DNA from: Adhaeretor mobilis
GTDB taxonomy: Bacteria; Planctomycetota; Planctomycetia; Pirellulales; Lacipirellulaceae
DNA: 64,000 nucleotides
Direction of reading: 5' to 3'
NCBI RefSeq assembly: GCF_007741515.1
Contig: NZ_CP036263.1
Location: forward strand, 4,947,178-5,011,177
Shown here: in pieces, positions 1 through 15,112 of the stretch
How the letters are laid out: each line of letters starts with the position of its first letter
How positions within the stretch are numbered: position 1 is the stretch's first letter
Program-made: the position numbers and the translations under genes
The notes under the pieces: generated by a model
The model's database searches: none
What the model was told of the DNA's origin: nothing
Seen by the model: only the letters and a program-made list of their open reading frames with translations

Positions 1-374
1 AGGATCAAAAGAAATTCGATGAAGCGCTCGACGAAAAGCTGGCTGCTGCTGAGAAGGAATTTCGCGAGAAGATCGAGGCAATCCAAGACGCTAAGGGCCT
101 GAGCTCGATGGAGAAAATGCAGCAACTCAGTCTAGTATCTCGTCGTGCCGAGTCGAAGTTTGAAGCCGAGAAAGCCGCCATCGACACGGAGCGAAGCCGC
201 AATCAAAAGAAGACCAAGAACGACATGGACGAGGCTGTCGAATCCGTGCAGCTCAAGTACAAACTGTTCGGCCTGTTTATTCCGCTCATCCCGCCGTTGC
301 TCCTGGCGACCGCGGTGTTCTTCCACCGCCGCGAGCAGGAACGCATCGGCGTGGTGAAGGAACGACTACGATAA
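1..374 (+). CDS. GldG-like ABC transporter auxiliary protein, C-terminal part
   Basis: The frame is open from the left edge, starting at base 3, and ends at TAA 372-374, so only the last 123 residues are seen. The visible part is a charged, probably coiled-coil stretch rich in K, E and R, then one membrane helix (LFGLFIPLIPPLLLATAVFF) and a short basic tail ending KERLR. This is the usual C-terminus of the GldG family (uncharacterised ABC system related to gliding motility). The next gene encodes a DUF4340 protein, the common neighbour of GldG in planctomycetes, which is the main reason for the call. GldG is thought to act with GldA/GldF-like ABC subunits in the inner membrane; its substrate is unknown. 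The N-terminal domain lies outside the window, so the family call is an inference. Confidence 0.6.
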   Translation, partial: DQKKFDEALDEKLAAAEKEFREKIEAIQDAKGLSSMEKMQQLSLVSRRAESKFEAEKAAIDTERSRNQKKTKNDMDEAVESVQLKYKLFGLFIPLIPPLLLATAVFFHRREQERIGVVKERLR

Positions 375-8322: not shown

Positions 8323-9321
8323 ATGTACAAGAGTATTGTTTTGTTGTTGATGGCTGCTCTATCAATTGGATGCTCTCCAGAAACGGTTTTACAACAAGCC
8401 GAAGATACTCCACCGCGCCCAGCGGGTGATATAACTACTGCAGATGCAGGGCACCCCCATAAGATTGCAACAAAGCACCTACCTAATCCAGTCCAAGTTC
8501 ATCCGAAGGTGATTTCCGGCGGCTTGCCAGAGGGTGACAGAGCGTTTCAGGAACTCCAAGACTTGGGCGTCAAGACAGTTATCAGCGTCGATGGTGCAAG
8601 GCCCGATGTGGCGATCGCTAAGAAATATGGACTTCGATACGTTCACCTACCACACGGGTACGATGGTGTGCCAGAAAATCGCATCAAAGAATTGGCCAAG
8701 GCAGTCCGTGATTTGGACGGACCAGTATACATTCATTGCCACCATGGAAAACACCGCAGTCCGGCTGCGGCCAGCGTGGCCTGTGTCGCGGCTGGGTTGA
8801 TACCACAAGTAGATGGTTTGTCAGTTCTTAAAATCGCAGGCACTAGCCCGAACTATCGTGGGCTGTATGAATCTGCCCGCACGACAACACCTTTTGAGGA
8901 CGCCTTGTTGGATGAACTCGACGTAGAGTTTCGAGAGTCGATGGAAGTGCCACCGATGGCCGAAGCGATGGTGGCGTTGGAGCACACGCACGACCACCTC
9001 AAGGCGATTGCTGCTGCCGGGTGGCGTTCCCCCGGTGATCATCCCGACCTGGACCCGGCCCACGAAGCATTGCTCTTCCGAGAACACTTCACTGAGCTAC
9101 TTAGAACGGACTACGTGCAGCAGAAGTCGGAAGAGTTTCAGCAACTTATGCGGGGCTCTGAGGAAGCTGCACAGAAGTTGGAGGACACCCTACGCCAATG
9201 GCAACCAACGGAATCTCGGCCTGCTCCACCACCCGCCTTGGAACAAATATTCACCAGCATTACAGCCGACTGCAAGACGTGTCATCAAAAGTTTCGCGAC
9301 GTTCCACTTAGTGAGAAGTAG
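8323..9321 (+). CDS. Lipoprotein with tyrosine-phosphatase domain and C-terminal heme-c motif
   Basis: The protein has 332 residues and two unlike halves. A lipobox LSIGC (Cys17) predicts a lipoprotein. Residues about 55-190 form a dual-specificity/tyrosine phosphatase domain with the signature HCHHGKHRS: Cys139 and Arg145 make the C-X5-R phosphate loop. Residues about 205-325 are helical and end with CKTCH (317-321) followed by QKFR, the covalent heme attachment pattern at the end of cytochrome c'/b562-type four-helix bundles. A phosphatase attached to a c-type cytochrome, both outside the cytoplasm, suggests heme-linked redox or gas sensing of phosphatase activity, but this is inference. 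The porin gene converges on it with one base between the stops. Confidence 0.8.
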   Translation: MYKSIVLLLMAALSIGCSPETVLQQAEDTPPRPAGDITTADAGHPHKIATKHLPNPVQVHPKVISGGLPEGDRAFQELQDLGVKTVISVDGARPDVAIAKKYGLRYVHLPHGYDGVPENRIKELAKAVRDLDGPVYIHCHHGKHRSPAAASVACVAAGLIPQVDGLSVLKIAGTSPNYRGLYESARTTTPFEDALLDELDVEFRESMEVPPMAEAMVALEHTHDHLKAIAAAGWRSPGDHPDLDPAHEALLFREHFTELLRTDYVQQKSEEFQQLMRGSEEAAQKLEDTLRQWQPTESRPAPPPALEQIFTSITADCKTCHQKFRDVPLSEK

Positions 9322-9322
9322 T

Positions 9323-10813
9323 TCAGAACTCCGCTTGGAATTGAGTGCGAAATAAGACGCCACTGTCGCCTACGAGTATGTCGCTGGTTGTGTTCTGTTC
9401 TGGGCTACCATCCAAAGCCGTTACGTCGAAAGACACTTTCACAGCTGGCGATTCAAGTGGATACCAATTCAATCCTGCGGCGTATTCGGTGCGCTCGCCA
9501 AATAACCCACTCACCTGTGAGTAACGAACGTTCCAGTCGAGTCGCTGTGGGACTATGAAACGCCCGCCTTCGACGTAGAATCCTCGTTGGAATAGATCAT
9601 TGACAGACAGTGCCCCGTCTCCGCGAATGTCTTCGATCCACCGCAAAAAAAGTTCCGTATTGACACTCCAACCACGCCATTTCATAGCCGCATCGACGCC
9701 ATAAAAGTAGATGTCGAATTCCGATACGGCAACTCCGGCGGTTAGGGCGCCCGTTTGGGTCAATCTTGTACCGTCCGTAAGCCGTATGAAGTCGGTTTCA
9801 TCAAGTGGTACGCCTACGGCGTCTGCGGCTTGCGACGAGTACACAAACGAGTGGCCGAACCGGACAAGGGGGTCGCTAGTACATTCGAAGTCTACGATTT
9901 GGCCGCCAAAGTCTCCGAACGGATCAAAGTAGTTTGTGGAAGCGAACGCAAAGCGATTGTCGGTCGTTGAATTAGGCAGGTTGGCGGTTCGGTATCCGTT
10001 ACCCGCCATAATCTCATAGTGTCCCGTGTTCCCAATTTTGCCAATGCCAAACAGACCGATCGTCCGATCAGGGCGAAAGAAATCGCAGGCCATCGGTCGG
10101 TCGATAAATCGGGTCCGACGTGCTCCCAGTAGCCATTGTCGGCTTGCGACGACTTTCCGCTTACCCATTTGAATCAGAAATCGGTCACTACACTCCCATG
10201 CCCACCAGTAATCGAAAAAATCAACTGTGTGGCCCCCGTCAGTGTCGCCGTCAAGCTGCAAGAAATAGGTTAGTCTTGGGTCTTGTGCATACCCTGAAAA
10301 AATCAAACGTGCGCGTTCAATGTCGAAAGCGTTTCGGTTGCGTATCGGGCGAGTTACGCCGGCATTGTCTGTCCAACTGTCTGCGTCACGGCTAAAGGCA
10401 TGGTGGCGAAACTGAATCCATCCATTGACCTTCAACTCAAGCGGATGCTTTTCCGAGTCGAAGGGTCGCAGCACAAACCCCTTATCGTGGTCCGTGTAGT
10501 ATCGCAGTGTGCGGAAGTCTGGGGATGACCCCGCGTCGCATAATGGTTCGCATGAATCTTCTACCACCACGGGCAAACGGCGGATGGTAGACGCGACGCC
10601 GCAGAAAGGTTCGTCTTTACTAGCAGATTCGTAGACCGACGCTTGGCGTTCTACTTGGTCGCGTAGTTCGCTGATTTCAGCCGCTTGTTTATCTAGTAAC
10701 GACTTGAGTTCTGCTGTCGTGGGGTTGGCGAAAACGTCTTGCGAGCAGACAGCCCCCAGGAGCAAACAAGTACTCGCAAGGACTGAGAATATCCGATTAG
10801 AAACACGTAGCAT
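9323..10813 (-). CDS. OprO/OprP-type outer-membrane porin
   Basis: With the start at 10813 the protein has 496 residues. That ATG has GGAG 8 bases upstream and leads directly into a signal peptide (MLRVSNRIFSVLASTCLLLG). A longer frame from 10882 adds 23 basic residues with no role. A short coiled coil follows the signal (LKSLLDKQAAEISELRDQVE), typical of planctomycete porins of the phosphate-selective O/P family. Many aromatic-rich beta strands then run to a C-terminal FRTQFQAEF ending in Phe, the outer-membrane assembly signal. Such trimeric porins pass anions such as phosphate or pyrophosphate; specificity cannot be read here. A pairing with the phosphatase-cytochrome gene, which it faces, is possible but unproven. 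Confidence 0.85.
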   Translation of the reverse strand: MLRVSNRIFSVLASTCLLLGAVCSQDVFANPTTAELKSLLDKQAAEISELRDQVERQASVYESASKDEPFCGVASTIRRLPVVVEDSCEPLCDAGSSPDFRTLRYYTDHDKGFVLRPFDSEKHPLELKVNGWIQFRHHAFSRDADSWTDNAGVTRPIRNRNAFDIERARLIFSGYAQDPRLTYFLQLDGDTDGGHTVDFFDYWWAWECSDRFLIQMGKRKVVASRQWLLGARRTRFIDRPMACDFFRPDRTIGLFGIGKIGNTGHYEIMAGNGYRTANLPNSTTDNRFAFASTNYFDPFGDFGGQIVDFECTSDPLVRFGHSFVYSSQAADAVGVPLDETDFIRLTDGTRLTQTGALTAGVAVSEFDIYFYGVDAAMKWRGWSVNTELFLRWIEDIRGDGALSVNDLFQRGFYVEGGRFIVPQRLDWNVRYSQVSGLFGERTEYAAGLNWYPLESPAVKVSFDVTALDGSPEQNTTSDILVGDSGVLFRTQFQAEF

Positions 10814-11028
10814 CTTGCCACTCCGAGCCTTGCAAATCCTTCGCTGGGCCATCGGAGTCTTGCAGACAGACTTTGGTTCCACCGTCGTGGTACACCGACG
10901 GCAAGATACATCGGCACTTGCACTGGTCGTTGTTTAGGTTTTTACAGAAATACGGGCAGTTCGGGGGAAGGAACTCTTGCTTGCTCTTGTCCTACCCCAG
11001 GGAAACGGTTCTAGCCGACAATCTCGTT

Positions 11029-11966: not shown

Positions 11967-13229
11967 GTGCAGGACTTCAGCGCAATCATTAACGAATTAT
12001 TTCGATCGGAATCTCGCCGTGTGCTGGCGACACTAATTCGTGCGCTGGGCGATTTCAATTTGGCGGAAGACGCAATGCAGGAAGCGTTTGCAGCGGCTTC
12101 TGCGGATTGGGAATCAAATGGCATTCCCGACGATCCCGTTGCATGGCTGATTTCTGCAGGCAGATTTCGGGCAATTGACCTGATTCGCAGAGAAGCCCAG
12201 TTTCGGGAATTGCTGCCGGGTATTGTTTCGCGAGTCGAAGAGATTACATCGCGCAACATGGTCGTCGCGGGACGTGAGATCGAAGACGATCAATTGCGAC
12301 TGATCTTCACTTGTTGTCATCCTGCGATCGATCCGAGGATTCAGGTGCCGCTCACTCTGAGGGAGGTTTGCGGGCTGTCTACGGAGGAGATCGCCGACGC
12401 ATTCCTGACAGCTCCCGCCACGATGGCTCAGCGGATTGTGCGGGGAAAAGCTAAGATTCGCAGTGCCGGAATCCCGTATGTCATCCCTTCTCGCGACGAA
12501 CTTCCGGATCGAATCGACGCTGTGCTGTCGGTCATCTATCTCGTTTACAACGAAGGTTATTCCGCGTCAATGGGCAGTCAACTGCTGCGCGTCGAGCTTT
12601 CGAGCGAAGCCATTCGCCTTGGTCGGCTTCTAGTGAAACTGCTTCCGGATCCCGAAGTCATGGGTTTGCTTGCGCTGATGTTGCTGCACGAGTCTCGGCG
12701 TGATGCACGCGTTGATAAAACGGGAGACATCGTCCTGCTCGAACAACAGGATCGCTCAACCTGGAACTACCAATTCATCGAAGAAGGACAACGGCTGGTT
12801 CAGCAGTCGCTGGCTTCGCGACGCATCGGTGCCTACACATTGCAGGCCGCAATATCGGCTGTTCATGCGGACGCAACAGTTGCCTCAGAGACCGACTGGC
12901 ATCAGATCGTCGCTCTGTACGACGTGCTGTTCCAGATTGACACATCGCCAGTGGTCGAGTTGAACCGGGCGGTTGCTGTCGCGATGCGTGACACACCGAC
13001 AGCGGGACTGCAGTTGATCAACGGGATACTCGATCGAGGCGAATTAACCGACTACTACCTGACTCATTCGGCTCGCGGCGAGTTGTTGCGGCGAAGCGGC
13101 GATTTGGTGGGGGCGAAGGTTGCATTCGAACGAGCGTTTGAGCTTGCCAAGCAGGACTCGGAACGACGTTTTCTTGCGAAACGCCTGAAATCCCTTGTGA
13201 ATCACAGGGAAGAACGTGACAAGAATTAA
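11967..13229 (+). CDS. ECF42-type RNA polymerase sigma factor with C-terminal extension
   Basis: The protein has 420 residues, about twice the size of a plain ECF sigma. Region 2 lies at about 10-80 (LGDFNLAEDAMQEAF, DPVAWLISAGRFRAIDLIRR) and region 4 at about 110-165 (LTLREVCGLSTEEIADAFL). The rest is the helical extension (DUF6596 and TPR-like, with FNEGYS-like VYNEGYSAS and later YDVLFQIDTSPVVELNRAVA) that defines group ECF42. The start is a GTG at 11967 with AAGGGAG upstream. ECF42 factors lack a classical anti-sigma and are known to be encoded beside YCII (DGPF) proteins, which is exactly the case here. The extension is thought to control activity. The likely regulon is the genes directly downstream. 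Confidence 0.92.
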   Translation: MQDFSAIINELFRSESRRVLATLIRALGDFNLAEDAMQEAFAAASADWESNGIPDDPVAWLISAGRFRAIDLIRREAQFRELLPGIVSRVEEITSRNMVVAGREIEDDQLRLIFTCCHPAIDPRIQVPLTLREVCGLSTEEIADAFLTAPATMAQRIVRGKAKIRSAGIPYVIPSRDELPDRIDAVLSVIYLVYNEGYSASMGSQLLRVELSSEAIRLGRLLVKLLPDPEVMGLLALMLLHESRRDARVDKTGDIVLLEQQDRSTWNYQFIEEGQRLVQQSLASRRIGAYTLQAAISAVHADATVASETDWHQIVALYDVLFQIDTSPVVELNRAVAVAMRDTPTAGLQLINGILDRGELTDYYLTHSARGELLRRSGDLVGAKVAFERAFELAKQDSERRFLAKRLKSLVNHREERDKN

Positions 13230-13340
13230 TTTCGTGGAATTTTTGGACAGCATGTCGATTCTCGCCGTCCCCGTTCGACTACTGATGAAATGAGAGGCGC
13301 TGACCCTGCCTTGGCAACCAATCACTGTGGAGAGCTCAAT

Positions 13341-13739
13341 ATGAAATTCATCTGTCTTGGGTACGCTGACCACTCAAAGTTTGCAGCAATGAGCGAGCAG
13401 GAGATGCAAAGCGTCATGGAAGAGTGCATGGCGTACGATGACGTTCTGCGGCAGGGCGGGCATTTTGCTGGTGGCAATGCGCTAGAGGACGCGGCGAAGG
13501 CAGTCACGCTTCGCTTTCGCGATGGCAACATTCAGGCTACCGACGGGCCCTACGCGGAGACCAAAGAACAAATCGGTGGCATCCTGATTCTCGAAGCGGA
13601 CAACATGGAACACGCCGTCGAACTCATGTCGAAGCACCCGGGCGTCCGCATCGGACCGTTCGAGATTCGTCCCACCGATGAAACAATCGATAAGATGGTT
13701 GCCCAGCGCGATGCTGCGTTCATGGAAAGGAAGAGCTGA
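13341..13739 (+). CDS. YCII-related (DGPF) protein
   Basis: The 132-residue protein starts at the ATG at 13341, which has GGAGAG 8 bases upstream; a longer frame from 13290 is not needed. It shows the YCII landmarks: [14 protein letters not shown] at the start, [15 protein letters not shown] (the DGPF core) in the middle, and IGPFEIRP near the end. YCII domains form small ferredoxin-like dimers of uncertain chemistry. In ECF42 loci they are the signature partner of the sigma factor. The gene lies 111 bases after the sigma stop, on the same strand. Confidence 0.9.
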
Positions 13740-13764
13740 GATTCACCAGCAGGAGGAATAACCG

Positions 13765-14238
13765 ATGTTTGCGAAACCGCAGAAAGAGCACGAATGGCTG
13801 CATCAACTGGTTGGACGTTGGAAGGTCCATCATGACTGCGAAATGCCCGACGGAACCAAGTCCACAACAGAAGGCACGATGAATTGTCGATCGCTTGGCG
13901 GAATGTGGTTGATTTGCGAAAGCACGGGTGAGTCACCTGAAGGCGAAGCTTGGTCATCCATCATGACACTTGGGTTTGATCCGACGAAGGGGCATTACGT
14001 GGGCACGTTCGTCGGGTCGATGATGCCAAACATCTGGAAATATAAAGGTAAACTCGACGCATACGGTAAGCGGCTGCCGCTGAATTCGTTCGGGCCACAG
14101 TTCGACGGAGGTGGAACGTGCAACTATCGGGACACGATCGACATCTTGGACGCCGACACGTGGCTGTTCGGCAGCGAAATGCAGAACGAAGATGGATCGT
14201 GGGTACAATTCATGCATGGGAAACATACTCGCAGTTGA
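13765..14238 (+). CDS. DUF1579 domain-containing protein
   Basis: The 157-residue cytoplasmic protein matches DUF1579: HEWLHQLVGRWKVHHDCEMP at the N-terminus, SLGGMWLICES in the first third, and LGFDPTKGHYVGTFVGSMM before the C-terminal beta strands. The family is a beta-barrel of unknown function, perhaps a small-ligand binder. A Shine-Dalgarno AGGAGG lies just upstream (near 13750), and only 25 bases separate it from the YCII gene, so the two are likely in one operon. Confidence 0.85.
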   Translation: MFAKPQKEHEWLHQLVGRWKVHHDCEMPDGTKSTTEGTMNCRSLGGMWLICESTGESPEGEAWSSIMTLGFDPTKGHYVGTFVGSMMPNIWKYKGKLDAYGKRLPLNSFGPQFDGGGTCNYRDTIDILDADTWLFGSEMQNEDGSWVQFMHGKHTRS

Positions 14239-14266
14239 ACCAATTCTAAATGAAAGAGAGACAAAA

Positions 14267-15112
14267 ATGAGAGTCATGGTCATGGTCAAGGCGACCAAGA
14301 GCTCCGAAGCCGGTGAAATGCCGAGTGAAGAACTGCTGTCACGGATGGGTAAGTTCAACGAGGAACTCGTAGCCGCTGGAATTATGAAATCCGGCGAGGG
14401 CCTCAAGCCAAGCTCCAATGGCGTGCGCGTTCATTTTTCCGGAACCAACCGGACTGCAACAGACGGTCCTTTTGCGGAAACGAAGGAACTCGTGGCCGGT
14501 TACTGGTTGTGGGAAGTGAAGTCAATGGACGAGGCAGTTGAGTGGGTCAAACGCTGTCCGAATCCGATGCTGGAAGATTCAGATATTGATATCCGCCCAC
14601 TTTTCGAAATAGAAGATTTCGCGGAGAGCGACCCCACGGGCGAACAAGCGTCGCAAGAGGAGGATCTGCGACGCGCAGTAGCGTTACATCAATCGACGAC
14701 GCAGCCCTATCTCTTCTTCGCCGGTCGGTGCGACGAAGCTCTCGCATTCTACGAGCAGGCAATCGGAGCACAGATTCTCATGAAAATGCGATTCAGCGAA
14801 AGCCCTGAACCGCTTCCCGAGGGCGTGCTGCAATCCGGCTTTGGAGATAAGGTCATGCACGCATCATTCAAAGTTGGGAAGATGAACTTGATGGCGTCTG
14901 ACGGATGTAATGACGCAACAAAATTCGAAGGCTTTCGGCTGGCGTTGACGGTCGAAAACGAATCCGCCTGCGATTTGGCATTCAATGCACTCGCAGAAGA
15001 CGGAACAATTGACATGCCATTGGAAGCCACCTTCTGGTCACCACGATACGGTCAGGTTACGGACAAATTCGGAGTCGGCTGGATGGTAATGGTCACGGGC
15101 GAGCAACCATAG
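14267..15112 (+). CDS. YCII-VOC fusion protein
   Basis: The protein has 281 residues from the ATG at 14267; the longer frame from 14111 overlaps the DUF1579 gene and is rejected. Residues 1-115 are a YCII domain (MRVMVMVKATKSSEAG, ATDGPFAETKELVAGYW, IDIRPLFE). After a polar linker, residues about 145-281 form a VOC (PhnB/glyoxalase-like) domain with YLFFAGRCDEALAFYEQAIG at its start and WSPRYGQVTDKFGVGWMV at its end. PhnB-like VOC proteins are metal-dependent enzymes or binding proteins of mostly unknown substrate. In other genomes the two domains are often separate neighbours, so this looks like a true fusion within the ECF42 regulon. Confidence 0.88.
   Translation: MRVMVMVKATKSSEAGEMPSEELLSRMGKFNEELVAAGIMKSGEGLKPSSNGVRVHFSGTNRTATDGPFAETKELVAGYWLWEVKSMDEAVEWVKRCPNPMLEDSDIDIRPLFEIEDFAESDPTGEQASQEEDLRRAVALHQSTTQPYLFFAGRCDEALAFYEQAIGAQILMKMRFSESPEPLPEGVLQSGFGDKVMHASFKVGKMNLMASDGCNDATKFEGFRLALTVENESACDLAFNALAEDGTIDMPLEATFWSPRYGQVTDKFGVGWMVMVTGEQP

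Follow-up and report, generated by a model that had tools for sequence, protein, structure and literature searches.

The phosphatase TpbA (PA3885) of Pseudomonas aeruginosa, a periplasmic dual-specificity phosphatase (DSP) without a heme domain, employs Cys132 as nucleophile and Asp105 as general acid (PMC4409338). The inositol pyrophosphate phosphatases PFA-DSP1 and Siw14 are cytoplasmic, eukaryotic, and devoid of a general-acid Asp. They carry a Cys-x-x-Gly-Lys-His-Arg P-loop and, in PFA-DSP1, hold 5-InsP7 through Lys154, His155, and Arg156 (PMC9038691). Among class II cytochromes, classical cytochrome c' is five-coordinate, the His/Met members (c-556, b562-like) place a helix-1 Met opposite a helix-4 His, natural cytochrome b562 holds its heme without covalent attachment, and NaxLS (Kusta0087/Kusta0088) of anammox planctomycetes is a separate small cytochrome dimer with a distal Cys32 and no fused enzyme. 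Both domain types are thus known, and it is the enzyme class formed by joining them that is undescribed in the literature searched: neither a phosphatase-cytochrome fusion in planctomycetes nor a PTP-superfamily enzyme with covalent heme was found in these full texts, a body of literature that leaves subscription journals mostly outside. That both halves of the protein fall below threshold in Pfam partly explains why the pairing is easily overlooked.

The stretch of Adhaeretor mobilis DNA analysed here (the window, 64,000 nt) contains a gene whose predicted product combines two such domains in one chain, with the following features.

8323..9321, + strand: phosphatase-heme c lipoprotein gene, an open frame with homologues across Planctomycetota
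8323..8373, + strand: predicted lipoprotein signal peptide, with cleavage between SIG and C17, from the sequence and homologue N-termini
8458..8922, + strand: predicted dual-specificity phosphatase (PTP-fold) domain, residues ∼46–200, from the AF2 model and the TpbA match
8662..8664, + strand: Asp114, candidate general acid, Asp in 102/112 homologues and aligned with TpbA Asp105
8734..8760, + strand: phosphate-binding loop HCHHGKHRS with nucleophile Cys139 and Arg145, both residues in 113/113 homologues
8953..9297, + strand: predicted four-helix class II cytochrome c domain, residues 211–325, from AF2, VIA, and a profile match
8968..8970, + strand: Met216, predicted sixth (distal) heme ligand
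9271..9285, + strand: CKTCH heme-c attachment motif with proximal ligand His321, in 112/112 homologues that reach the motif
9295..9297, + strand: Arg325, the class II CXXCH-x3-R arginine, in 111/112 homologues

The frame begins with ATG and runs for 332 codons without a stop to give a product of 332 aa; the opposite strand is broken up by stops. The initial annotation had described the product as a lipoprotein joining a tyrosine phosphatase domain to a heme-c tail with both active motifs intact, and both are indeed present in the open frame at the residues it numbered, C139 to R145 in one half and CKTCHQKFR (residues 317–325) close to the C-terminus in the other. The N-terminus, MYKSIVLLLMAALSIGC, is of the lipoprotein type with C17 at the modification site; lipobox-like sites are found by a loose pattern in 41 of 76 homologues, and there are others with signal-like N-termini. 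The prediction of an exported lipoprotein is supported, and the earlier description stands as an exported lipoprotein with a predicted PTP-type phosphatase, a predicted c-heme tail in the fold class of cytochrome c', and a functional link between the two that is conserved. A tRNA-Pro lies upstream, 387 bp before the gene start, and a porin O/P-family gene (9323–10882, − strand) is convergent with the phosphatase-heme gene, the two stop codons being 1 base apart. Clustering of ORFs within 6 kb around 80 loci reveals no recurrent partner gene, the best-recurring neighbour (13/80 loci) belonging to a protein family common in planctomycetes. Since the porin does not recur around homologues, it is not taken as functional context. 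Elsewhere in the window, at 11967–13229 and 13290–15112, an ECF-type sigma factor that includes a DUF6596 region precedes several short ORFs on its own strand.

The full-length AF2 model, built with 77 family sequences, has a pLDDT of 92.8 and a pTM of 0.86, with pLDDT ∼97 in the phosphatase half. The best structural match of this half is TpbA (Z 16.3, rmsd 3.0, 155 residues); VHZ (Z 15.5–15.9), DUF442 structures (Z 14.8), and the DSP fold of PFA-DSP1/Siw14 (Z ∼14.5) also match. TpbA Cys132 and Asp105 align with Cys139 and Asp114, and the loop IHCHHGKHRSP shares with TpbA the HC-X5-R motif and a His at the same position, although the P-loops differ (CKHGNNR in TpbA, CHHGKHRS here) and overall identity is ∼20%. 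Assignment of this half to the TpbA-like dual-specificity phosphatase fold is well supported by the model. Residue 143 is K or R in 103/113 homologues, and the residue after the P-loop Arg is Gly rather than Ser in 27/113, which may slow hydrolysis of the phosphoenzyme. The candidate for a second, resolving Cys in the phosphatase half, C154, occurs in 92/113 homologues and hence is not invariant. The name tyrosine phosphatase given in the initial annotation is appropriate to the PTP fold, but at the level of the fold only, and it implies no substrate. Because the GKHR loop resembles that of PFA-DSP1, the substrate need not be phosphotyrosine; to our knowledge, extracytoplasmic protein tyrosine phosphorylation is not established in planctomycetes. 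Searches of the 332-aa protein with Pfam, NCBIfam, and PADLOC return sub-threshold matches or none. Membership in the DUF442/TIGR01244 sulfurtransferases was rejected at 18.9 bits versus a cut-off of 85.85, as was the polymorphic-toxin DSP-PTPase family (PF22785, Tc-R-P) at 23.3 versus 27 bits, and no toxin-like genes are found among the neighbours in the window.

The tail domain modeled alone has a pLDDT of 93.9 and comprises four helices. VIA alignments of the tail yield Z scores of 12.4 with NaxLS, ∼11.5 with cytochrome c', and 10.7–11.0 with cytochrome cb562, but Z ∼11 is also reached by unrelated four-helix bundles, and NaxLS, being within ∼1 of cytochrome c', is not clearly the closest. 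The class of the tail therefore rests on sequence and fold together, and, as Foldseek with the tail alone gives no match below E 0.001, its assignment rests on profile matches and VIA alignments. Sequence profiles of the tail match Thermochromatium cytochrome c' (E 2.2e-5) and also cytochrome b562. Against PF01322 (cytochrome c'/c-556) the tail of this protein (P0001) scores 25.8 bits versus a gathering cut-off of 26.5, and across the family 54/59 members match at E ≤0.1 (best 5.5e-9), whereas PF07361 (b562) matches in only 1/59, so that sequence membership in the b562 family is absent. The fold and the C-terminal CXXCH-x2-[FY]-R are shared with cytochrome c'/c-556, and the class II four-helix bundle, the C-terminal CXXCH, and the phylum with NaxLS. 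Sequence and model together give good support for placing the tail among four-helix bundles of the type seen in cytochrome c', b562, and NaxLS. The Adhaeretor mobilis genome contains a frame of 1248 aa in which a ResB region and a CcsA region occur together; ResB-CcsA, or system II, is machinery required for heme c attachment. At G000:C1:1662147-1662464 (L126) lies a protein of 305 aa that begins with a signal-like N-terminus and has a cytochrome c' domain scoring above threshold but no phosphatase.

Met216 occupies the sixth position of helix 1, is present in 113/113 homologues, and is the sole invariant candidate on the distal side of the heme. Read from alignment end points, and assuming no compensating gaps within helices 1 and 4, the VIA alignments with b562-type chains (model 16..131, chain 1..106) place Met216 on Met7 and His321 on His102, with the same register for the engineered heme-c cb562 entry 2bc5, and the alignment with Kusta0087 (model 15, chain 25) places Met216 on Cys32, the residue that the deposited mutant structures C32M and C32G alter. 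The helix-1 Met and helix-4 His of the His/Met class II cytochromes are thus found in the same places in the predicted tail, whereas the distal Cys of NaxLS is replaced by Met throughout the family. Some five-coordinate cytochromes c' have a non-ligating distal Met, so invariance of Met216 is no proof of ligation. Judged from sequence and model, ligation of the heme iron by Met216 is likely. Because this residue is both invariant and on the distal-ligand position, a six-coordinate His/Met heme is the likelier state, and the five-coordinate high-spin heme of cytochrome c' proper is argued against. A probable His/Met heme in turn favours redox state over NO, CO, or O2 as the input. The likeness to cytochrome c' initially proposed therefore holds for the fold class and the CXXCH-x3-R motif but was overemphasized, and the accompanying emphasis on gas sensing gives way to redox input, Met216 occupying the distal position of b562 and NaxLS.

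The same domain pair recurs in other genomes, as the initial annotation had proposed to check. When 59 related genomes were searched at the protein level in all six frames, a search unbiased for both motifs, matches were found in 27, with both domains at 25 places and both motifs in 25/25. A second survey scanned 84,980 species genomes for the phosphatase loop and a Y[VI]H[IL]P motif and gave at least 478 related loci; among the best 80, which were examined, both motifs are present in all 79 with an ORF complete at the 3' end, counts that are unbiased only for CXXCH and Met, since the survey was seeded on the phosphatase loop. A family profile matched 206 of 392 Planctomycetota genomes, most of the strong places listed covering almost all of the two-domain profile. 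In a merged alignment of 113 distinct homologue sequences (mean pairwise identity 43%, lowest pairs 23%), C139, G142, H144, and R145 are each conserved in 113/113, and C317, C320, and H321 in 112/112, the remaining sequence being truncated before CXXCH. Homologues usually lacking one of the motifs would have spoken against the original proposal, and essentially none do. Since phosphatase and heme motifs are kept throughout, the pairing is not due to chance, and the family is found in several orders and classes of Planctomycetota.

Several homologues are unusual in their location or architecture. Among the matches listed, the only one named as a group outside Planctomycetota is a clear homologue in a metagenome-assembled genome labelled Abditibacteriales (L103, JANWYM010000218.1), for which transfer or mis-binning is possible. 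Large plasmids carry the gene in Aquisphaera giovannonii (NZ_CP042998.1:87637-88572) and Planctomyces sp. SH-PL62 (NZ_CP011274.1:75978-76817), and these two annotated records name the product 'dual specificity protein phosphatase' or 'hypothetical protein'. In one case (L112:1957-4272, G420) a single 772-aa frame fuses a complete Na+-dependent nucleoside transporter (PF01773/PF07670/PF07662) to the homologue that follows it, another homologue has an N-terminal NPCBM domain (L018:280-2364), and a third has an N-terminal 3-keto-disaccharide hydrolase and GDSL lipase (L023:1510-3840). A second, truncated tail copy at G000:C1:713312-713536 (L028, L122), in an 87-aa frame with CKACP replacing CXXCH and the end ...HAPLGEK, is a decayed duplicate of the phosphatase-heme gene in the same genome.

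Two distant planctomycetes from different families of the phylum (L129, G059; L130, G189) encode the phosphatase without a tail, and in both the next same-strand gene encodes a small cytochrome, located 83 bp downstream in L129 and overlapping the phosphatase stop by 4 bp with its GTG start (GTGA) in L130. In both cases phosphatase and cytochrome each have their own lipoprotein-like N-terminus, and the cytochromes contain CXXCH-x3-R, retain a Met in the would-be helix 1, and, in a small search, give weak matches to the tail profile (E 3e-4 and 2e-3). Fusion in most members of a family together with adjacency in others is a classical sign of joint action, and the two halves, mostly fused and in these two cases adjacent, therefore appear to act together. 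In addition, a pTM as high as 0.86 in a chain of two domains suggests that these are held in a defined orientation to each other. The tail-less phosphatases L132–L135 and L138 (E 1e-18 to 1e-23), in which the loop ends in DRTG, belong to another subfamily and therefore do not contradict the pairing; the weaker places from the 392-genome search that were opened are likewise phosphatases of the other subfamily. A closer relative, L131, lacks the tail and is a tandem form close to the end of its contig.

The reading that we prefer, to which we assign a probability of roughly 50% for the chain from heme attachment through redox control, is that of a lipid-anchored, extracytoplasmic TpbA-like phosphatase whose C-terminal half would be a class II c-type cytochrome. 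Heme is very probably attached covalently via Cys317 and Cys320 by the system II machinery, the iron would probably be low-spin with His321 and Met216 as ligands, and outside the cytoplasm the phosphatase probably acts on a phosphorylated substrate, either a protein or a small molecule. The heme may exchange electrons with envelope carriers so that its redox state controls the phosphatase, a step to which we give even odds, either because the heme protects the Cys139 thiolate from oxidation in a compartment that is oxidising or because a conformational change is passed on where the two domains pack together. As far as a phosphatase that carries heme, the chain is supported by the conserved anatomy, in which domains and pairing are well supported; from there we infer redox coupling.

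Alternatively, the heme might be five-coordinate or have a displaceable Met, with binding of NO, CO, or O2 switching the phosphatase. The cytochrome c' fold class of the tail, the retained CXXCH-x3-R arginine, and the possible role as an NO carrier discussed for the closest structural match, NaxLS (PMC7438415), are compatible with such gas sensing, but a Met at the distal position in every homologue suits a fixed His/Met pair and genes of NO metabolism do not recur around the 80 loci, leaving it a small chance. A degenerate heme site, or a tail that serves only as a structural domain, is very improbable: the heme is predicted from sequence and the tail of P0001 lies under the Pfam cut-off, but CXXCH and Met216 remain invariant even as pairwise identities drop to 23%, and where the halves are separate genes these still lie side by side.

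The remaining two explanations concern the chemistry of the PTP-fold half. A scavenging phosphatase of small polyphosphorylated molecules (inositol phosphates, pyrophosphates, or nucleotides), with the cytochrome as anchor or general electron-transfer module, would account for the GKHR P-loop shared with plant PFA-DSP1, for the prevalent K/R143 and invariant H144, for the fusion to a nucleoside transporter in L112, and for the porin O/P-family neighbour in the window. We consider it unlikely, because the resemblance is confined to the loop and TpbA is closer overall, neither porin nor transporter fusion recurs, and the invariant heme ligand set is left unexplained. Thiol or sulfur chemistry of the DUF442/rhodanese-like kind, in which the heme would accept or donate electrons by analogy with periplasmic sulfur-oxidising cytochromes, would explain a heme more easily than hydrolysis does and draws on weak matches to BLH_phosphatase/TIGR01244 sulfurtransferases and on the DUF442 structures. 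Nevertheless, the TIGR01244 score is far below its cut-off, TpbA is the better structural match, and the general-acid Asp in 102/112 homologues is a signature of phosphate ester hydrolysis, making this explanation quite unlikely.

For the preferred reading, a heme-bearing phosphatase under redox control, two precedents are relevant: c-type heme domains usually serve in electron transfer, with sensing in a few receptors, and eukaryotic PTPs are known to be controlled by the reversible oxidation of cysteine. A redox cofactor held on a phosphatase in the oxidising envelope would allow direct redox control to be tested with the purified protein. Little is known of envelope signalling in planctomycetes, for which such a family would provide a widely distributed candidate signalling enzyme. 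We propose tentatively, and at somewhat less than even odds, that these phylum-wide envelope phosphatases are under direct redox control and use a His/Met c-heme, covalently part of the enzyme, to read respiratory electron flow and thereby switch dephosphorylation of envelope targets. If true, neither a response regulator nor a membrane-spanning kinase would be needed to link respiration to phospho-signalling in the envelope.
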